Shown piece by piece: positions 18,775-36,427 of a stretch of 42,986 bases of DNA (position 1 is the stretch's first letter; each line of letters starts with the position of its first letter). The translations under genes were made by a program, and so were the position numbers. The stretch covers positions 1-42,986 of the forward strand of contig CAJXOL010000006.1 in the NCBI GenBank assembly GCA_913057675.1. Direction: 5' to 3'. This DNA comes from an uncultured Pseudomonadota bacterium (GTDB taxonomy: Bacteria > Pseudomonadota > Gammaproteobacteria > Burkholderiales > Eutrophovitaceae). The notes beneath the pieces were generated by a model. It did no database searches. It saw only the letters and a program-made list of their open reading frames with translations, and had not been told where the DNA came from.

Positions 18775-18864
18775 GGAAGCGTGGCAGAGCGGTTGAATGC
18801 ACCGGTCTTGAAAACCGGCAAGGGCGTGAGTCCTTCGTGAGTTCGAATCTCACCGCTTCCGCCA
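18775..18864 (+). tRNA. serT: tRNA-Ser (anticodon UGA)
   Basis: Acceptor GGAAGCG pairs with CGCTTCC. The anticodon stem CCGGT/ACCGG holds the loop CTTGAAA with anticodon TGA at 18809-18811. A long class II variable arm (about AGGGCGTGAGTCCTT) and the T-arm with GTTCGAATC are present. The CCA end is encoded (18862-18864). Confidence 0.97.
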
Positions 18865-19598
18865 ATTATATACTTCTAGCCATTCTCGCAATCCAAAATA
18901 AAAAAATTAGTATAAACATCAACAATATGCACAAAGTTTATAGGGTATGCGCGACCCATTACGACCTTGCCCATGAATGTATCTGTAAAAAAATAAAGGG
19001 TGTTGAGTGTGAGCCTCTACGAATCAAGTGCCCGATAGTCACTCGCTATTCTTATTCCCATTGTCTTCTTGCATCTTTTAATAATCCTGTGCATATCAGA
19101 CATCGCCGCTGAAGTCTCCTTTGAAGCCTCGTTTTTTCGAACCACCATCACATTCGGATAACTAAACCTTATGTAGACCGCTTCTCCGCGGGTGTTTAGT
19201 TTTTTCTGGAATTAGTTCCGCTCTTCCTAATTAGCCCATGAAAAAAGATTGAGAAACCCAGAACAGGCTATATAAGTCTATAAGTTAAATTTCGATTGTT
19301 ATCTAAGCTGCCTGCGTGAGGTTGGCAGTAATGTAGAACAAGCAGTCTATAGTTTGGCTTAAGTGTGCCGCTAAAAATAAAATAATGACAATCTTAAGAC
19401 TTAGATGGCTAGGGATGTAATTAGAAAAAAATACTAAGGCACTTTCGTTTCTCTTTTTTATTTTAACCATAGGGTCATACGATGATTTTCGATAATCTAC
19501 GTAGGGAAATTTCAAAAGTAAGTCGCGATAAAACAAAGCTCGGTGGATACGAGGTTCGCACAAGCCGAATGTCGAAGTGATTCGCTAGAGGTATACCT
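18865..19598. other. Gene-poor interval downstream of tRNA-Ser
   Basis: About 730 bp in which I find no convincing gene. Short frames on both strands lack family sequence or ribosome binding sites. It contains one terminator-like stem-loop (19162-19205). A 32-codon frame at 19482-19580 lies in the same frame as the lipoprotein that follows, separated by a TGA. Position behind a tRNA gene would suit an integration scar, but I see no copy of the tRNA 3' end. Confidence 0.5.
19162..19205 (+). terminator. Candidate terminator in the gene-poor interval
   Basis: CTAAAC (19162-19167) pairs with GTTTAG (19194-19199), with imperfect GC-rich pairing inside, followed by six T. It could end a tRNA-Ser read-through transcript or a small RNA. 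Confidence 0.4.
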
Positions 19599-20138
19599 GT
19601 GATTATTGTGGCTGGCCTAATGATTTCCGGTTGTGCAGGGACGCTCGATCATAAGCCATTCGTTACCAAGATGCCTGATCAACAACTCACTGTGATCACT
19701 GGATATTCCGAGGCCTCAGATACGATCATCTCTGACGCAGCAAGTACGGCTGTGATTTGCAAAACACCAAGCGCGCATGCAATCCGAACCGCTGCAGAAG
19801 CGGGGAGTATTAGCCTTGTCACGGTAGGAGATGATTCTACGGATTCGGAATCAGAACAAGAGGGCGGGATTGAAATGAAAGGCAGAACAGCGTCACTGCT
19901 GATGACGCAAGAGATCATGTACCGATTTTGTGAATTAAGCCGTAATGCGAAATTGACTAAACCTGAGCAAATTGATTTATTTAAAACCATCCTTGGAGTT
20001 GTGGAAGGTCCATGGGATAACCTCTCGGTCAACGAGCGCGCAACTGAGGCCCAAGTGTTTTCAGTCGCGGATCAAGCCATAACAACGCCAGACCCCACTG
20101 ACGCGGATTCTACTGATGCGAATTCTACTGATGGTTAA
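19599..20138 (+). CDS. Putative lipoprotein of unknown function
   Basis: From GTG 19599 (AGAGG 7 nt upstream) the 179-aa product begins MIIVAGLMISGC, a hydrophobic stretch plus lipobox with Cys12, but without the usual positively charged n-region. In frame, 30 nt upstream, ATG 19569 would give M-S-K then TGA then FARGIP joined to this start, a normal lipoprotein signal if the TGA were sense. The body has ICKTPSAHAIRTAAEAGSIS (53-72) and LLMTQEIMYRFCELS (99-113). The latter reminds me of an uncharacterised family with an LxRDxxYRxCE-like motif. The tail repeats DSTDANSTDG-type units. The next exported protein starts 27 nt downstream. Confidence 0.6.
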   Translation: MIIVAGLMISGCAGTLDHKPFVTKMPDQQLTVITGYSEASDTIISDAASTAVICKTPSAHAIRTAAEAGSISLVTVGDDSTDSESEQEGGIEMKGRTASLLMTQEIMYRFCELSRNAKLTKPEQIDLFKTILGVVEGPWDNLSVNERATEAQVFSVADQAITTPDPTDADSTDANSTDG

Positions 20139-20165
20139 CTTTTCAAATAATACGAAAAGATTCCA

Positions 20166-20633
20166 ATGAAAATATTCTCAATAGCAGCCTCAGCCATAGT
20201 GTGCTTTCTTTGTTTATGGGCAACGCCAAGTTCCGCATACGAACGAGTGAGGATCTACAATCACTCCCTTATGGAATTTGACGTAGAGGTATCTTATTTT
20301 TATTGCGCGGGAGATAGATGGCGCATACTTGCGGGCAAAATTAAAATCGAGAACGGAATAATCGTCCCTAGTGTGTCCCAAGCACCCGAGACGCGTGGTA
20401 AGTGTCTCATAAAGAATATTCGGGTCAGATCGGACAAAGCGCAGGTCCAGATTAATCCTTATTCGAGCATTAGTGGTACCTACGAGCACACATTTCACCT
20501 CATAAAAATGAAACATGGGAAGTCATGGCTGTTTAGGATTAAAACGGATTCTAAACTGCATCAAGTTTGTGGAAAATTGCCTCTATCTGCATGTAAGTAT
20601 GTCGACGTTCGATCGCCGAAACCTTCCAAATAA
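20166..20633 (+). CDS. Exported protein of unknown function
   Basis: 155 aa with a clear signal peptide (MKIFSIAASAIVCFLCLWATPSSA, cleavage before YERVRI). The mature part is beta-rich and basic, with four cysteines (in YFYCAGD, RGKCLI, HQVCGK, SACKYV) that could form two disulfides in the periplasm. I recognise no family. It lies 27 nt after the lipoprotein gene, so the two may share a transcript. The ribosome binding site is weak (AAAAG). Confidence 0.6.
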   Translation: MKIFSIAASAIVCFLCLWATPSSAYERVRIYNHSLMEFDVEVSYFYCAGDRWRILAGKIKIENGIIVPSVSQAPETRGKCLIKNIRVRSDKAQVQINPYSSISGTYEHTFHLIKMKHGKSWLFRIKTDSKLHQVCGKLPLSACKYVDVRSPKPSK

Positions 20634-20661
20634 TTGGTCAAATAGAGCTTAAAAATACTGT

Positions 20662-20692
20662 TTGAAGGCACGTGCATTCAAGAATCTATAAA
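20662..20692 (+). promoter_or_regulatory. Promoter with overlapping palindromic operator
   Basis: TTGAA-G-GCACGTGC-A-TTCAA (20662-20681) is a 20-bp palindrome with one mismatched pair. TATAAA (20687-20692) follows after five bases, and TTGAAG within the palindrome can act as a -35 element (spacer 19). This is the layout of a repressor operator over a promoter, 60 nt upstream of the small membrane protein genes. Confidence 0.5.
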
Positions 20693-20754
20693 ATTGAACT
20701 TCTGGGTTCGTATTTTGTCGTATTTTTAACAATGCCAAGTCTTGAGGAGTAGTA

Positions 20755-20955
20755 GTGGAACAATCAAAATTAAGAATCAAAATTGGCTGGCTTGCAGGAA
20801 TATGTGCTGGAGCATGTGCGGTTTGGTTACCGTTGGGTGTTCTCGAATATGTTCCTTTTGTGTTTGAAATACCCGGGGAAACGATGCTTCGATCACATGC
20901 AGGATTGGCGGTAGGGTCGTTAATGGTAGCGGCATGGGGTTTCTGGGAAAAATAA
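20755..20955 (+). CDS. Small membrane protein 1 of a three-gene set
   Basis: 66 aa starting at GTG 20755 with GAGGAG about 6 nt upstream. It has two hydrophobic segments (IGWLAGICAGACAVWLPLGVL and AGLAVGSLMVAAWGFW) around a polar loop EYVPFVFEIPGETMLRSH. I do not recognise the family. The good ribosome binding site and tandem arrangement with two further tiny membrane proteins support a real gene. It may be a subunit of a small membrane complex, but nothing in the sequence names the function. Confidence 0.65.
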   Translation: MEQSKLRIKIGWLAGICAGACAVWLPLGVLEYVPFVFEIPGETMLRSHAGLAVGSLMVAAWGFWEK

Positions 20956-20985
20956 CTTAAAAATAGATTTAAGAGGAGAGAGTCA

Positions 20986-21165
20986 ATGGTCAAAGTTTCA
21001 GATATGTTCATATTAATTGCTGTATTAATCTCATTTGCGGTTTCGGCATACCTGTGGTTTTCTGGCAATAAAGAGGAGGGTTTATTTACTGCAACTTGGG
21101 TAACTTCAATTCTTTGCTTTGGTATCTACTTCAACGTTTTAGCGTTAAAGAAAGGGAAAAAGTGA
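20986..21165 (+). CDS. Small membrane protein 2 of a three-gene set
   Basis: 59 aa from ATG 20986, preceded by AGAGGAGAGAG. It has two predicted transmembrane helices (MFILIAVLISFAVSAYLWF and TATWVTSILCFGIYFNVLAL) joined by SGNKEEGLF, and a basic tail KKGKK that suggests both termini are cytoplasmic. It starts 30 nt after gene 1, and its TGA overlaps the GTG of gene 3. Family unknown. Confidence 0.65.
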   Translation: MVKVSDMFILIAVLISFAVSAYLWFSGNKEEGLFTATWVTSILCFGIYFNVLALKKGKK

Positions 21166-21269
21166 GTGATAATCTAATTCTAATTGTTGGCCTTTTCTGT
21201 ACTGCTCTTACTATTCTTGGCGCCATCATGACTGTTCAGGAGTTCAAAAAACAGAGCGAGGGTGATTGA
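21162..21269 (+). CDS. Small membrane protein 3 of a three-gene set
   Basis: 35 aa, GTG 21162 overlapping the previous stop by GTGA, with AAAGGG upstream. Sequence: MSDNLILIVGLFCTALTILG then AIMTVQEFKKQSEGD. It is a single hydrophobic helix with a charged cytoplasmic tail. Short single-helix proteins of this type often modulate or complete a membrane complex; that role is inferred from its overlap with gene 2. A perfect palindromic terminator follows 32 nt later. Confidence 0.6.
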   Translation: MSDNLILIVGLFCTALTILGAIMTVQEFKKQSEGD

Positions 21270-21300
21270 TTTGCATCTAAGCAATTGAAAAATATATATT

Positions 21301-21346
21301 TATTATAAAAAAAGACCACTTTTTAAAGTGGTCTTTTTTTATAATA
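21301..21346. terminator. Perfect 22-bp-arm palindromic terminator
   Basis: The 22 bases at 21301-21322 are exactly complementary to 21325-21346 around TT. The core is AAAGACCACTTT / AAAGTGGTCTTT, flanked by A and T runs and TATTAT/ATAATA ends. It can terminate in both directions. Confidence 0.93.
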
Positions 21347-25017: not shown

Positions 25018-25794
25018 TTATTTTAAAAGTCGCATTATTTTTAAATATAAATCAATTGGAATAATATTTAGAAACTTAAATAAAATACTTAATCTTTTCG
25101 GGAAGTGTGTCTCAAATTTTCCGCTTTTCAGCCCTTTGATTGTTAACTGGGCTGCGCGCTCAGGTGACATCAGTAAAGGCATTTTAAATTCGTTTTTTTG
25201 TGTGAGTCGGGTATTTACAAATCCCGGGGAGATGAGAGATACATCTATGTTGTAACGCTTTAGTTCAAGGTGTGAACTCTGTGCTAAATGGGAGATCGCT
25301 GATCGACTGGCCCCATAATCAGAAGCATTGGGGAGTCCTCGATAGGCGGCCAAACTGGAAAACCAACTCCAGTGATATTGTTTGTTTGTTAAAGGGTGTT
25401 TAGTCCAGTAGCGCACGATTCTTGGAAATAAGTTAAACGCACTTACTAAATTAATATTCAGTCGTTTTAGTGTTGCTTCCGGGTCAAGACTTAGGACGCC
25501 TCCGGGGTGGTATACCGCGGGCAACCAAAACACCGTATCTGGAACCGTTCCTTCTTGAATAAGTAAATCCATAACATGAGCGACATTTTCAGTGCTAGAA
25601 ACATCCATTGGTAAGATTCTGGCTTTACCTGAAAATTCGTCTTTTAGTCGATTTTCGTTACGTGCAGACACGCTCAATCGAGCCTGCTGTAGTTTGAGGG
25701 CTTGGCCAAGAGCAAGTCCAATTCCCTCCGAGGCACCAATAATCCATACATGACGATCTGACCAGTCTTTAATAGGTTTGTTTGATGTGAACAT
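25018..25794 (-). CDS. Short-chain dehydrogenase/reductase with atypical active site
   Basis: 258 aa classical-length SDR. The cofactor motif WIIGASEGIG (17-26) is intact. The usual NNAG is replaced by WLPAVY at about 90-95, and the catalytic YxxxK reads Y160-G-A-S-R164. The Ser (SSLAAY, 146-147) and Tyr are kept. R for K may reduce or change activity. It is the last gene of the minus-strand operon that begins with the FAD protein, 12 nt after the DUF3833 gene. SDRs accompany Cfa/DUF1365/DUF3833 genes in other proteobacteria. Substrate unknown. Confidence 0.85.
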   Translation of the reverse strand: MFTSNKPIKDWSDRHVWIIGASEGIGLALGQALKLQQARLSVSARNENRLKDEFSGKARILPMDVSSTENVAHVMDLLIQEGTVPDTVFWLPAVYHPGGVLSLDPEATLKRLNINLVSAFNLFPRIVRYWTKHPLTNKQYHWSWFSSLAAYRGLPNASDYGASRSAISHLAQSSHLELKRYNIDVSLISPGFVNTRLTQKNEFKMPLLMSPERAAQLTIKGLKSGKFETHFPKRLSILFKFLNIIPIDLYLKIMRLLK

Positions 25795-25806
25795 CTCAGT
25801 CAGACA

Positions 25807-26352
25807 TTACTTAGAAAAACTAACCACGACATCACCTAAGTGAATGCCAAATTTTGAAAATTTGGCATGATTGACCATCACCCCGGTTTTTGAGATCCAC
25901 ATTTGGTCATCAAATTTAAAGTTTAATTTTTTATCCCCAACTTTGAGGGTGAGTGTGTAAGACCATCGGAGGACATCTTCAATGATGATCCCGGAGGCGA
26001 TGCCCACGACATCTGGCGCGCTCCCTGACCACTCCGTTTCGCTTATACGGTTAAGTGTCCACGTACGGTTCTCCACTTCACCGTCATTCCATGTGAATGT
26101 CTCCTCGAGTGTGCCTGATATGTCGTCGAAGGTTCCGACCGTGAGTACTTCAAAAGTTCGTATTATTTTCCCAGACCTGTCTTGAACAAAACCAGAGCCT
26201 TTGGTTTTTCCTGAGAAGAAAGTAACCAAATCAAATGCTGCCATAGTATTCCTTTCCTGTTGTGCAGCTTGCTCATTAGAACAGCCAATGAGAGAAGCAA
26301 TGACGAAAATGATGGATAAACTAGATGTTATTCGTTGCGTAAATGTGACCAT
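25807..26352 (-). CDS. DUF3833 family lipoprotein
   Basis: 181 aa. The signal peptide ends in the lipobox IASLIGC (Cys24), so it is lipid-anchored in the envelope. The body, with FFSGKTKGSGFVQDRSGKI, TFTWNDGE, IIIEDVLRWSYTLTLKV and DDQMW, fits the DUF3833 family, typically found beside cfa and DUF1365. Its first 32 bases overlap the end of the MFS gene, showing tight coupling. Molecular function unknown; binding or carrying a modified lipid would suit the context. Confidence 0.85.
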   Translation of the reverse strand: MVTFTQRITSSLSIIFVIASLIGCSNEQAAQQERNTMAAFDLVTFFSGKTKGSGFVQDRSGKIIRTFEVLTVGTFDDISGTLEETFTWNDGEVENRTWTLNRISETEWSGSAPDVVGIASGIIIEDVLRWSYTLTLKVGDKKLNFKFDDQMWISKTGVMVNHAKFSKFGIHLGDVVVSFSK

Positions 26353-27568
26353 TTTGACGATTATGAATGTGAAGAAGGATTAAAGAAATTGATTTTAAAA
26401 TGATTGGGCTTAAAAGATAAATTATTGCAAGAGATTCGTGCTTTGGTGTGACTCCGGGCTGGTAGCCCCAAAAGCTCAACAGGGGTAATGCTAATCCAGC
26501 CGCCATTGCTAATCCCAACTTCATCAGTAAACCCCATGACCCCATGATCATCGCAGAGCTCTTTTCTTTATTGATAAATTTAATTTTTTTGATTAATAGC
26601 ATCGAGGTCAGTAATAGTTCTGCGCCCACGAAAAGACCAGTGCCTAAGCATACTAAGGTAAACAACTCGGGGTTAGCATCATTAATCCAGAATCCGGGAA
26701 CGAACATAATGATCGTCATGCAAAGGCTTAATCTATATAGGTTGATGGTGTTGTAACGCGTAATTTTTTTCTCCCAAAACCATATCCCAATTAGTGCAGA
26801 AGTAAAATAAATGGCTAAGAGAGTCCCTCCCATTGCTTGTGATAGCCCCAAGTAATCCGTCACAAAAAACATGAATAGTGTTGCGGCGATCGCATTGGCT
26901 AGAGTGCTAATAAAAAGAGGCACCATCAATTGTGCCATTGTTAGGAATACACGCCAGTCGAGATCTTTATTGGGATTTGAGGAATGTTTAATTCTGGGTA
27001 AGCTCAGGACACAAAGGCTTGCAACTAAGGTGATGCCGATTAAGTAGATGGAAAATATCTTGGTGTGGGCCGCACTCGACAATACGGAGGCAACAATAAC
27101 TCCGAGGAGGGTGAATTGTTCCCTTCGACTAACTAATACCGACTGTTCCATCGTGTCGTTCGTCCATTGAATTGGCCACGCCTGTATTGCTATGCTCAGT
27201 GCACCGGCGCTAGTCGACACCAACAACGTGAGTAGGGCCATATACGTAAGCGCCTGTAAATCGTTGCTTAGAACATCAGGAGGGTTTATTAAGGCGATAT
27301 AGCCGGCAGTTATCAATATGGCTGATGGGATGCACCAGAGTTGAAATTTATGTCGGCTGGACGTTTTATCAATAAACTTACCAACCAAGGGGTCTGTGAT
27401 GGCATCGAGCAGTCTGACTAACATCAATGTAATCCCGATCTCAGCTAGGGACAGCTCGTATCTGTTGGCATAAACGGTAGGGATGAGAATGTATAAGGGA
27501 AGGCTCGTTGAAGCAACGACCAGGCCGGATAATCCGTAACGTAATGACTGAGTGTGGGTGACTGACAA
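26321..27568 (-). CDS. MFS transporter, GPH/MelB-like
   Basis: 415 aa with about 12 transmembrane helices. The N-terminal LVRLLDAITDPLVGKFIDKT segment is characteristic of the glycoside-pentoside-hexuronide:cation symporter branch. It starts at a TTG (27568) 24 nt after the Cfa-like gene with a weak ribosome binding site. In similar clusters an MFS gene of this branch is present, but whether it moves a lipid, sugar or drug is not visible here. Its 3' end overlaps the DUF3833 gene by 32 nt. Confidence 0.88.
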   Translation of the reverse strand: MSVTHTQSLRYGLSGLVVASTSLPLYILIPTVYANRYELSLAEIGITLMLVRLLDAITDPLVGKFIDKTSSRHKFQLWCIPSAILITAGYIALINPPDVLSNDLQALTYMALLTLLVSTSAGALSIAIQAWPIQWTNDTMEQSVLVSRREQFTLLGVIVASVLSSAAHTKIFSIYLIGITLVASLCVLSLPRIKHSSNPNKDLDWRVFLTMAQLMVPLFISTLANAIAATLFMFFVTDYLGLSQAMGGTLLAIYFTSALIGIWFWEKKITRYNTINLYRLSLCMTIIMFVPGFWINDANPELFTLVCLGTGLFVGAELLLTSMLLIKKIKFINKEKSSAMIMGSWGLLMKLGLAMAAGLALPLLSFWGYQPGVTPKHESLAIIYLLSPIILKSISLILLHIHNRQNGHIYATNNI

Positions 27569-27592
27569 AATTGAGTTTTTAGTTCACTTCTT

Positions 27593-28831
27593 TCAAATGG
27601 TGGGTTTCTTTGCGTAATGGCATATGGTGTACTGAACGACGTCAACATCTCTATTTAAAAATCCTGATCTGCAGTAGCATAAGTAAAACTCCCACATTCT
27701 CTTGAATCGGATGGGGAATCCAAGCGCTTCAATTTGCCTCCATTGTGTCTGAAACCTCTTAAACCATTCTAGTAATGTCCAGGCATAATCATGTCCAAAG
27801 CTATCTTTTTCTAGGATGTTGAACTTGTGTTTTGCGGCTAGCGTTTCAAACTGTGTTTGGCTCATAAGCATACCTCCAGGAAAGATATATTTCTGAATAA
27901 AATCGACTCCTGTTTGATATTCTTCAGTCAATGAATCGTTGATGGTGATGGCTTGAATGACTGCGCGCCCATTCGGCTTTAAAGATCGCTTAATCATTTC
28001 AAAGAATGTTTCCCAGTAAGCTTTGCCAACGGCTTCAATCATTTCAATTGAGACAATTCCATCAAATTGTTCGTCAACATCTCGGTAGTCTCGCAACAAA
28101 ATAGAACTTCTATTGTTAAGACCATTCACCTGTAATGTTTTACGTGCCCATTCCTTTTGCTCTTGAGACAGTGTGATGCCGACGTGTTTTCCCGACATGG
28201 TTTCTAGACGTATTTTGGATAGTTCTCCCCAACCGCAACCAATCTCTAATGTGGTTGATTCATCATTTAGTGGACCAAGTTTCGTGATGGCACGCGAGAT
28301 TTTAAATTGTTGCGCCTCTTCAAGGCTAGAGGCTAGTTGCCCATCGCTACTTCGGCGAGTCGCACTTGAATAGGTCATTGATTGATCCAGCCATAGCTGG
28401 TAGAAATCGTTACCAAGGTCATAGTGTGCCTGAATGTTATCCTTGGCCTGCTGTTTGGTGTTTTTTTTCAGCACATGCCGGATTCGATTTAATACGTTTG
28501 CTAATTTTTGCCCTCTGATGGGGGAGTCCAGCACACGTCTGTTTTGTCCAATAACCCATAATAGTTGATTGAGGTCTGGGGTATCCCAAAGGCCGTCCAT
28601 GTATGTTTCACCAAATGCAATGTCACCGTGAAGAATGATGCTGCGACATACCCCCCAGTTTCTAATAATTAGAATTGCAGAATTATTTTCTTTTGTAGTT
28701 ATTCCTGCCACATCTTTTCCGAAGCGGCGGATAAAACCATTTGGGCCTTGTATTTCTAAAGTTCCGACTTCTATCTGATTAAGAAAATTGAAGATAAGCC
28801 TGACCCAGAAGTTTAGAGGGGGATGTTTCAT
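27593..28831 (-). CDS. Cyclopropane-fatty-acid-synthase-like lipid methyltransferase
   Basis: 412 aa using ATG 28831, which overlaps the DUF1365 stop as ATGA. SAM-binding motif LEIGCGWGE (195-203), VGITLSQEQ and FDGIVSIEMIEAVG place it in the Cfa/MMT family acting on membrane phospholipid acyl chains. E. coli Cys139 (YSCAYW) is Ser156 here (MTYSSATR), and the LLHTIG histidine is replaced in VIQAITI, so bicarbonate-site residues differ. Such forms occur in the Cfa branch linked to DUF1365 and FAD proteins. The product may be a methylated rather than cyclopropane chain, as in furan fatty acid synthesis by UfaM, but that is inference. Confidence 0.88.
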   Translation of the reverse strand: MKHPPLNFWVRLIFNFLNQIEVGTLEIQGPNGFIRRFGKDVAGITTKENNSAILIIRNWGVCRSIILHGDIAFGETYMDGLWDTPDLNQLLWVIGQNRRVLDSPIRGQKLANVLNRIRHVLKKNTKQQAKDNIQAHYDLGNDFYQLWLDQSMTYSSATRRSSDGQLASSLEEAQQFKISRAITKLGPLNDESTTLEIGCGWGELSKIRLETMSGKHVGITLSQEQKEWARKTLQVNGLNNRSSILLRDYRDVDEQFDGIVSIEMIEAVGKAYWETFFEMIKRSLKPNGRAVIQAITINDSLTEEYQTGVDFIQKYIFPGGMLMSQTQFETLAAKHKFNILEKDSFGHDYAWTLLEWFKRFQTQWRQIEALGFPIRFKRMWEFYLCYCRSGFLNRDVDVVQYTICHYAKKPTI

Positions 28832-29604
28832 TTGTTTCTTTCGGAAAGTGTCAATGGTATTTTCTTTGCCCAAAGTACCAAGGCATTGAGGTGAATTTGA
28901 GTAATAATTTTGAGGCTTACGAAGGGATGTGTGACTAGAGCCTTCAGTGCTGAATGCCTTGTCAATGGTGCTGCTACACCGGTCATAAGGGTTTTAAGTA
29001 CTAATTGATCCGTATAGTAGTCTATGCGTGAAAAGTCGCGTTTCGTCTTTTTGTCGTAATGGAATTGAAATTGATAATGTCCCGTAACAGACAGAAAAGG
29101 AGATACGTAAAAACATTTAGGCGTAGAGATCACGTCGCCTGTTTTGAAGAACTCATGACCAAGCGGTGGCCTTAAGACATAGGTATGGTGTTGACCAAAA
29201 GTGTTATGCACTTCTGCAAAAACCGCAACAAGCTCGCCTAATTTGTTTTCGCAAAACCAGAAGCTTACAGGTTTAAATTGGTACCCCAGAACTCTTGGGA
29301 AGCACACAAGCCATATCTCCCCATCAGCAATATTCTCTAATTCATGCTCAGTGAGTATTCTGTTTAACCAGCGTTTAATGCTTTCGCCAGATCCATGATC
29401 TTCATCATTGAGGGAAATTAGGCTTTTCCGATTAATACCAAAAATCCAGTTACCCCACTGAGGCTTATCGTTTGAGGTTGCATAAAAAATAGAACGAATA
29501 GGCACGCGCACATAAAATGTTCGAGACTTTAGGGCGTGGGCCTTAGGGCTCAGCCTCTCATGCGTGACATACCCTTGAACAATTTGAGGTTGATTCCGCA
29601 TCAT
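28828..29604 (-). CDS. DUF1365 family protein
   Basis: 258 aa, opening with the family-typical YVTHERLSPKAHALKSRTFYVRVP and continuing with RVLGYQFKPVSFWFCEN, AEVHNTFGQHHTYVL, FYVSPFLSVTGHYQF and a C-terminal amphipathic region. Biochemical role unsettled; it is almost always next to an FAD amine-oxidase-like protein and a Cfa-like methyltransferase. The start follows the stop of the FAD gene with no gap, and the end overlaps the Cfa-like gene. Confidence 0.9.
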   Translation of the reverse strand: MMRNQPQIVQGYVTHERLSPKAHALKSRTFYVRVPIRSIFYATSNDKPQWGNWIFGINRKSLISLNDEDHGSGESIKRWLNRILTEHELENIADGEIWLVCFPRVLGYQFKPVSFWFCENKLGELVAVFAEVHNTFGQHHTYVLRPPLGHEFFKTGDVISTPKCFYVSPFLSVTGHYQFQFHYDKKTKRDFSRIDYYTDQLVLKTLMTGVAAPLTRHSALKALVTHPFVSLKIITQIHLNALVLWAKKIPLTLSERNK

Positions 29605-30897
29605 CTAAAGTGTCTCAATGAGCCTGTTGGCCACCCATAGACCAGATTGGTAGCCGCTTTCATGAAATCCATTGCCCATCCAAGCACCGGCTATCCAAAT
29701 GTGGTTTTCTCCTTGCAATTTTCGGATATTTTGAACAGCCTTTTCTCGATCAAGATCCATAACAGGATGTGCGTAATCAACAGATTTATGAATTTTACTA
29801 GGGTCCGGATTTTTAATGGGATTCAGGGTTACAAATAGATTTTTCTGGGTCGGCAAATGCTGGAGCTTATTCATGAAGTAAGTTACCGCCACGCGCTGAT
29901 TATCAGCTATATAGGTGTCGGAAAGATAGTTCCATGAAGCCCATGCCCGCATTTCCTCGGGCATAAGATTTTTATCTTCATGGATGATGGCAGTATTTTT
30001 TTGAAATTTTATCCGTGATAGTTCTTGTGAGAGCGGGGTTGGTAGGTTTTGTAGAATCTGCGCAGACTCATCTGCGTGCGATGCAAGAATGATATGGTCG
30101 CAAGCGATTTGCTGTTGTGCTTTGTTGCGATCTTCAATAACGACTTCTAGGCCTAATGGTGTTTTTATGACTGAGGTTACTTTGCTCTCTTTTTTAAATG
30201 TCACATTGTGGTTCTTAATGGCCGAGAGCATTGCGTCGATGTAACAACGACTCCCCCCTTTGATGCTGAACCATTGTGGTCGATTTATTAACGATAAGAG
30301 TCCGTGGTTTTGGCAAAAAGAGATAAAAAATTTTAACGGGAAATTCCGTATTTCCTTAACCGGACACGACCAGATGGCTCCTGCCATGGGAAGCAAGTAA
30401 CGCGTTTGAAAATAAGAGTCGTAGCCGTACTGGTCCAGGTAGTGCCCTAGTGTTATTGAGTTGCCTTGTGAGGTATTGCTGGGTTCGATGTGTTTCGGTG
30501 CGTTTACATTGAAACGGACGATGTCTCGGAGCATTTTTAGGAATTTAATGTCGTAGAGTCTTTTGGTTTGAGCAAAGATAGATCTTAAATTCGTTCCAGC
30601 CCACTCAAAAGCTCCATTGTCCAGTGATACGGAAAATGACATATCTGCCGGATGCGTCTCCACATTGAGGGCGGTAAGCCATTGGCGTAATCCGGGATAG
30701 GTTCGATTGTTAAATACAATAAACCCAGAATCCAGTTCTAATGGCTTCTCATCTATGGTTAGTGTGTGTGTGTGTGTGTGTCCCCCTAGGTAATCTGCTT
30801 TGTCTAGGACAGTTACTTTAGCGTGATCTTTGAGGTGCCAGCATGCAGATAGACCGGAGATGCCTGAGCCTATGACGATAACATGGTGTTTATACAT
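29605..30897 (-). CDS. FAD-dependent oxidoreductase (amine-oxidase-like)
   Basis: 430 aa using ATG 30897 (AGG 8 nt upstream; a GTG at 30915 adds six residues). An N-terminal Rossmann GSGISG (10-15) binds FAD, followed by VLDKADYLGGHTHTHTLT, LDSGFIVFN and the C-terminal IWIAGAWMGNGFHESG flavin motif of the NAD(P)-binding amine-oxidase family. It is the first gene of the lipid-modification operon. The HTHTHT run is encoded by a (CA)10 tract, prone to slippage. The substrate is probably a membrane lipid, judged from neighbours. Confidence 0.88.
   Translation of the reverse strand: MYKHHVIVIGSGISGLSACWHLKDHAKVTVLDKADYLGGHTHTHTLTIDEKPLELDSGFIVFNNRTYPGLRQWLTALNVETHPADMSFSVSLDNGAFEWAGTNLRSIFAQTKRLYDIKFLKMLRDIVRFNVNAPKHIEPSNTSQGNSITLGHYLDQYGYDSYFQTRYLLPMAGAIWSCPVKEIRNFPLKFFISFCQNHGLLSLINRPQWFSIKGGSRCYIDAMLSAIKNHNVTFKKESKVTSVIKTPLGLEVVIEDRNKAQQQIACDHIILASHADESAQILQNLPTPLSQELSRIKFQKNTAIIHEDKNLMPEEMRAWASWNYLSDTYIADNQRVAVTYFMNKLQHLPTQKNLFVTLNPIKNPDPSKIHKSVDYAHPVMDLDREKAVQNIRKLQGENHIWIAGAWMGNGFHESGYQSGLWVANRLIETL
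30762..30781. repeat. (GT)10 dinucleotide tract inside a coding region
   Basis: Twenty consecutive bases alternate G and T on the plus strand. They encode the His-Thr repeats just after the FAD-binding beta-alpha-beta unit. A gain or loss of one unit would shift the frame at about residue 50 of the FAD protein. Confidence 0.95.
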
Positions 30898-31114
30898 ATT
30901 CTGACCTGGAGACACTATTGATTATTTTGAGATACATATTAATTTGTGTTCGTCCTTGGGACCATCAGGTTAGAATTAAGTTTGGATTAGGTTCAATATT
31001 TAGGTGACATCATAGTTAATTTTGCGTGTCGTGGTATTTTCTGTCTTGTTCGGCGTTACATCATGCTTCTAGCGGTTTATGATGTACTTTTATTTGTTAA
31101 GTTGGAGGGGTTCC

Positions 31115-35536: not shown

Positions 35537-36427
35537 TTAATTGGAGAGGAGCTCGATAGATTGATCGTACACTTTATAAAGATCTGTTGTTTCTGGCAAA
35601 CCACCAACGGTGTAGGGAAGTGTAATTATCCGTACTCCTGTTTTTTCGGCCACCCAATCGCTCGGGGCTTCAGTGTCGAAGGGTGATCTGATAATGGCGA
35701 GTGTCGAGTTCTGTTTAATTGTCGATACGACCTTAGCGAGATGCCGCGCGGAGGGTGGGATACCTGGTTTTTCTTCAATAGAGGTGAGCACGTTAATTCC
35801 TAAAAATTGCAAAAGGTAGCTGAATGATTTGTGTTGTACGACTACACTTTTACCTGCGAGCGATTTTCTAGCAGATTCCCATCGTTCTGTTGCGGTGAGC
35901 CACTTCGTCTCAAATTCTTTTAGGTTTGCGGCATAGTTTTCTTTGTGATCTGGGTCGATTAGTGCAAGACGCTCATTTATGATGGCAGCGGTCTTTAGTA
36001 TGATTTTAGGGTCTAGGTGTACGTGCGGATTGCCTTCGGGGTGAATGTCTCCTAAACTTCGATCTAAAATCTGTGGGATTTCGATGTTTGTGACATAGTC
36101 ACTGACCAATATGTGGCCAAGTTGGCCTGCTTGGATTGTTTTTGTGCCGTTTCGAAGTAAAAGTGGCAACCAGCCTACCTCGAGGTCAGCGCCTGAGCAG
36201 ATCAACAGATCAGCACGCTTAATCCGACTCATTAGGCTGGGTTTTACACGGATAAAGTGTGGGTCTTGCCGGCCGTGAGTGGCGGAGACTGCCTTGATTT
36301 GATCCCGCCCTATTTCCTGAGCTAATGCCTGCCATTCTGGCTCGCAGGCAAATACGAATGGTTTGGCTTGAGCGGTATTAAACGAAAAAAAACAAAGAGA
36401 AATGATTGTGGACAGCCATTTAAACAT
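35537..36427 (-). CDS. Metal ABC transporter substrate-binding protein (ZnuA-like)
   Basis: 296 aa periplasmic cluster A-I metal-binding protein. The signal peptide MFKWLSTIISLCFFSFNTAQA is followed by FACEPEWQALAQEIG. Candidate metal ligands are H57 (QDPHFIRVKPS), H135/H137 (NPHVHLDPK), a later His (VVQHKSFSY), and the acidic C-terminal site near SPFDTEAP. It lacks the long His-rich loop of E. coli ZnuA. It starts 9 nt after AGGT. The leader upstream carries a Zur box and an attenuator-like stem-loop. Confidence 0.88.
   Translation of the reverse strand: MFKWLSTIISLCFFSFNTAQAKPFVFACEPEWQALAQEIGRDQIKAVSATHGRQDPHFIRVKPSLMSRIKRADLLICSGADLEVGWLPLLLRNGTKTIQAGQLGHILVSDYVTNIEIPQILDRSLGDIHPEGNPHVHLDPKIILKTAAIINERLALIDPDHKENYAANLKEFETKWLTATERWESARKSLAGKSVVVQHKSFSYLLQFLGINVLTSIEEKPGIPPSARHLAKVVSTIKQNSTLAIIRSPFDTEAPSDWVAEKTGVRIITLPYTVGGLPETTDLYKVYDQSIELLSN

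Follow-up and report, generated by a model that had tools for sequence, protein, structure and literature searches.

We describe three small genes, sp1, sp2 and sp3, in the window (the whole 42,986-nucleotide stretch of DNA analysed here), whose host is a Burkholderiales bacterium with a 2.1 Mb genome. With a probability of roughly one half, we read this trio as a co-translated operon for a five-helix inner-membrane hetero-complex that belongs to a light/photo-oxidative-stress regulon. Because the genes are kept together and often lie beside genes for light sensing or the repair of light damage, their products probably form a small membrane complex of the light-stress response. These surroundings, and not the palindrome found upstream of sp1, suggest the function.

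Three small protein genes in the window

The features discussed below are as follows.

18775 to 18864, plus strand: tRNA-Ser(TGA) gene; the trio lies directly behind it, without the palindrome, in two same-genus relatives
20662 to 20681, no strand: near-perfect 20-bp palindrome, proposed operator; single copy, not conserved
20755 to 20955, plus strand: sp1, 66 aa, GTG start, two predicted transmembrane helices (residues 3-29 and 44-62)
20986 to 21165, plus strand: sp2, 59 aa, ATG start, two predicted helices (residues 4-26 and 29-58)
21162 to 21269, plus strand: sp3, 35 aa, GTG start, single helix, C-terminus (V/I)QEFKK
21301 to 21346, no strand: perfect palindromic hairpin with A/T tracts and 22-nt arms; equivalent hairpins in two relatives
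25018 to 30915, minus strand: genes for an SDR, DUF3833, MFS, a CMAS/UfaM-like methyltransferase, DUF1365 (UfaO-type) and an amine-oxidase-like flavoprotein, 4 kb downstream of the trio

A sequence-only reading of this DNA had proposed three proteins of these lengths with hydrophobic helices, and the ORFs lie where it had placed them. All three products are hydrophobic. AlphaFold models contain two helices in sp1 (pLDDT 91) and two in sp2 (pLDDT 84); a single hydrophobic stretch is present in sp3. Of the three, sp2 is the most conserved, with the core motif YLWFxGxxEEGLFTAxWVPSILCFGIYFK. In sp1, Arg46 just before helix 2 is near-invariant and the remainder is variable. The sp2 and sp3 frames share 4 nt (GTGA) at their junction, in agreement with the tight or overlapping junctions that had been claimed. 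A strong ribosome binding site had been assigned to each gene; good sites are indeed present for sp1 (GAGGAG) and sp2 (AGAGGAGAG), but the only signal upstream of sp3 is AAAGGGA. Translation of sp3 is probably coupled to that of sp2.

Between the window and four same-genus relatives, dN/dS is ~0.1 for sp1, ~0.03 for sp2 and ~0.07 for sp3. In these comparisons pS is mostly 0.5-0.7, near saturation with the exception of the close sister, and pN is 0.01-0.16. The sequence-only reading had staked its case on synonymous-site bias, and the bias is strong. Judged by these rates, all three genes are under strong purifying selection. Since pS is near saturation and pN is low, sp1, sp2 and sp3 are all genuine protein genes, and on this comparative evidence their coding status is beyond doubt.

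By profile comparison, no curated family covers sp1, sp2 or sp3. Searched singly against Pfam and NCBIfam, none of the three gave a match above the cut-off, and alignments, compared with both databases for sp2 and with Pfam for sp1, gave none either. Weak similarity was seen between sp2 and two helices of PF07695 (7TMR-DISM_7TM; 20.6 bits). Membership of that family was rejected: the score is below the curated cut-off of 29 bits, and sp2 has two helices whereas PF07695 has seven. Solved structures contained no sequence match for sp2, and Foldseek searches with sp1 and sp2 returned generic helical matches only, with E above 2 and no activity indicated. A plasmid search found only a distant haloarchaeal protein with the helix-2 motif. 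This 94-aa Halobaculum plasmid protein (L117:3935-4219) has the motif (GLFVGLWAPTILAFASYYK) in common with sp2, a hint that the family may be wider. A literature search among open-licence papers found no description of the trio.

The palindrome and the hairpin

The sequence-only reading had described the trio as a self-contained, repressor-controlled cassette, with the palindrome at its promoter and a perfect palindromic terminator at its end. The terminator is real. The hairpin has a folding energy of -24.5 kcal/mol (z -9.5 against shuffles). In the sister species a hairpin built from other stem bases occupies the same place (z -5.7), and in a third species there is a further hairpin, with a T run. 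We conclude that the hairpin is probably a bidirectional terminator. Elsewhere in the host genome, on contig C10 of G000 (35943-35983, L003), there is a terminator-like hairpin that is 83-85% identical.

The palindrome (TTGAAGGCACGTGCATTCAA) also exists, with 9/10 pairs matching, 74-93 nt upstream of sp1, but its proposed role does not hold. By chance, 43 kb should contain about 1.3 palindromes this good; 3 were seen, among them the terminator itself and one beside a gene end. No second copy was found in the host genome, even with 2 mismatches allowed. The palindrome is broken in the sister species, the nearest relative (TTAAAGGCACGCGCATTCAA), and absent from the other relatives compared. A search of the plus strand found no sigma-70 promoter. 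With a single genomic copy, a broken counterpart in the sister species, none in the other relatives and a quality expected by chance, the palindrome does not support the operator claim, which we rejected. The claim of self-containment fares no better: in many genomes the trio is not self-contained, because it has 4-nt overlaps with photolyase or SDR genes. What the trio does have is its own terminator; a conserved operator palindrome was not found. A cassette with a dedicated repressor at the palindrome, or a toxic-peptide/toxin-antitoxin cassette, would fit the distance of the palindrome from sp1 and the strong terminator. We consider it very improbable, given that the palindrome is unique and not conserved, that the window contains no linked regulator gene, and that purifying selection acts over long distances in conserved operons, unlike in fast-evolving toxic peptides.

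In the window, tRNA-Ser(TGA) and the trio are separated by ~1.8-1.9 kb of other DNA. Because the trio directly follows the tRNA in two relatives, the segment at 18865-20650 looks like a lineage-specific insertion behind the tRNA gene. It contains ORFs for a lipoprotein-like 179-aa protein and a secreted 155-aa protein.

Conservation and neighbours of the trio

sp2 is present in 7 of 61 relatives and then in further families of the same order. A scan of genome contigs yielded 239 sp2 loci, and the locus statistics given here rest on the best 80 of them. An sp3-like ORF (31-78 aa, one hydrophobic helix, C-terminus usually EF plus basic residues) is present in 80/80 loci and starts at most 13 nt from the sp2 stop, most often as an ATGA overlap. 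An sp1-like two-helix ORF lies upstream of sp2 in 76 of 79 evaluable loci, in the order sp1-sp2-sp3; the script counted 75, to which we added L037, excluded by a hydrophobicity threshold. One clade (L088, L089 and L093) lacks sp1 and keeps sp2 and sp3. A different ORF stands in sp1's place before sp2 in these three loci. The trio order is kept in Burkholderiales, Methylophilaceae, OM182, Woeseiaceae, Halieaceae, Microbulbifer, Legionellaceae and Ectothiorhodospiraceae, and a divergent trio is present in G014 (L016). The distribution is broad but patchy, with a clear sp2 in 8 of 369 genomes sampled from the class. Conservation as a unit, on which the sequence-only reading had also relied, is thus borne out, the genes being kept together in Beta- and Gammaproteobacteria (two former classes). 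Co-conservation, fixed order and overlapping stop and start codons are what an operon-encoded hetero-complex would show.

Several observations accompany this survey. A single genome, G613, has two sp2 copies (contigs C71 and C75). Natural fusion of the trio genes was considered for two genomes with long open frames around sp2 and rejected, as the frames are overlapping ORFs. MAGs titled Bordetella parapertussis or Klebsiella pneumoniae carry the trio (L042, L053, L086 and L113); these titles look like misnomers, and the contexts resemble those of other betaproteobacterial MAGs.

We clustered all genes neighbouring the 80 loci, and Pfam confirmed the recurring families: DPRP, DNA photolyase, MerR HTH, PAS, SDR, DUF427, DCC1-like, DUF3429, amine oxidase and fasciclin. 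In unrelated lineages the trio adjoins photolyase, DPRP, LitR-like MerR, short-LOV, BLUF, DUF3429, DCC, fasciclin or SDR genes. DPRP lies near the trio in 8 loci (0.14 expected, P 4e-12) and photolyase in 7 (0.33 expected, P 6e-8), with expected counts taken from all DPRP and photolyase genes in 44 trio genomes; these P values are optimistic because the loci are partly related to each other. The matches occur in separate lineages, including Legionellaceae, Methylophilaceae and betaproteobacterial MAGs. Clustering with photolyase-type genes is thus above chance for the family, but not seen for the window copy. In the window, neither photolyase nor MerR adjoins the trio, the genes at 25018-30915 are outside the trio operon, and the DPRP of this genome is on another contig. 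DPRP is also commoner in trio genomes (24/44 versus 67/361, pooled, P 8e-7, kinship uncorrected), and within single samples the association of its presence or absence is weak or marginal (P 0.03-0.05).

Some loci show close linkage. In L100, 4-nt overlaps join photolyase to sp1 and sp3 to SDR; similar overlaps join SDR to sp1 in L064 and sp3 to SDR in L049 and L105. SDR genes occur in 17 of the 80 loci and LitR-like MerR genes in 8. The neighbouring MerR HTH proteins are 321-347 aa long; NCBIfam CarH and MlrA match the HTH only, far below the cut-off. In L049, L053, L058 and L071, the MerR gene is divergent and 235-279 nt upstream of sp1. In L031 the surroundings of the trio include genes for BLUF, GTP cyclohydrolase I, lipocalin and DCC as well as two for MerR proteins, one of which has B12-binding domains; L032 has TspO. 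A short PAS/LOV gene adjoins the trio in L113 (7315-7710), L060, L063, L030 and L032. The cysteine motif of LOV photoreceptors is GxNCRFLQ. The short PAS/LOV proteins encoded next to the trio carry GKTPRILQG at this position and for that reason may not form the usual photo-adduct. The divergent MerR genes, the adjoining PAS/LOV genes and the BLUF gene would all suit a signalling or regulatory module, embedded in the membrane, that relays light or redox signals to adjoining LitR/LOV/BLUF regulators. We find this rather improbable: no conserved sensor or catalytic residues were seen except sp1 Arg46 and the sp2 core, a regulator is absent from most loci, and the search for a MerR homologue in the window's own genome (a weak one, without a positive control) found none.

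When the loci were dereplicated at 80% nucleotide identity, 16 of the 51 clusters had DPRP, photolyase or MerR and 24 had any light-type gene. About half of the clusters, then, have no light-type gene nearby. This would be expected if the trio were a module of small subunits, made constitutively and without specificity for light, in a membrane enzyme or in a respiratory/electron-transfer complex, with the photolyase neighbourhood reflecting a shared regulon in some lineages only. The very strong conservation of sp2 and the genes for HiPIP iron-sulfur proteins, which are electron carriers, near the trio in three genomes (L031, L042 and L064) are consistent with it as well. However, no large subunit recurs beside the trio among the neighbours of the 80 loci, and, once same-genus synteny and common transporters are set aside, it is mainly light-type genes that recur next to it in different lineages. 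We therefore regard a constitutive module as unlikely.

In the light-stress reading that we prefer, sp1, sp2 and sp3 would be co-translated and assembled into an inner-membrane hetero-complex with 2+2+1, or five, transmembrane helices. The trio would be among the genes that beta- and gammaproteobacteria turn on under light or photo-oxidative stress. The complex would act at the membrane side of this response, together with flavin and pterin enzymes: photolyase/DPRP, SDR, an amine-oxidase-like flavoprotein and sometimes HiPIP. Most likely it would protect or adjust either the membrane itself or electron transfer there. That the three proteins form a complex, that their genes are induced by light and that they have a biochemical activity is what we infer here. 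Tentatively, we propose that this three-subunit, five-helix membrane complex of ~160 residues is a dedicated light/photo-oxidative-stress effector that, in many beta- and gammaproteobacteria, acts together with flavoproteins of the photolyase family and with pterin and SDR enzymes.

Relation to known light-response genes and small membrane proteins

Gene sets that respond to light are widely conserved among non-photosynthetic bacteria. To our knowledge, their membrane part is mostly unexplained. The trio offers three concrete proteins, none with a curated family, that accompany photolyases, LOV/BLUF sensors and LitR-like regulators in several orders. Its carriers include many water-dwelling beta- and gammaproteobacteria, with cultivable ones in Microbulbifer and Methylopumilus. 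The trio is also an example of how widely conserved genes can escape annotation when they have only 35-66 codons.

Pseudomonas mendocina has two LitR regions (PMC9758184). One contains photolyase, SDR, FAD oxidoreductase and UfaM; the other contains a class II LitR (321 aa), a short LOV, FolM, FolE and FolX (PMC9758184). The Pseudomonas LitR/PmlR regions resemble the trio loci in their MerR-type class II LitR of ~320 aa, short LOV, photolyase, SDR, FAD oxidoreductase, UfaM and GTP cyclohydrolase/pterin genes. They differ in that no set of three small membrane proteins is named for them in the consulted passages of that paper, and the suggested link of the trio to light comes from gene neighbourhood. 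Nor do the consulted passages of PMC7380195 mention a trio-like set.

The cluster at 25018-30915 in the window consists of the same kinds of genes as the LitR light-regulated/furan-fatty-acid set (PMC9758184, PMC7380195). One member of DUF1365 is UfaO, an enzyme for furan fatty acids that has been investigated in connection with chrR in Rhodobacter sphaeroides (PMC7380195). Like the Rhodobacter ufaM/ufaD/ufaO set, the window has a CMAS-type methyltransferase, DUF1365 and a flavoprotein, here downstream of the trio. The likeness is at the Pfam level, and the window set is separate from the trio operon.

Small membrane regulators of larger membrane proteins, for instance MgrB (PMC10576120), are like the trio in size and in being membrane peptides with one or two helices. 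In the MgrB case one protein acts on PhoQ (PMC10576120), whereas the trio consists of three co-conserved genes in one operon.
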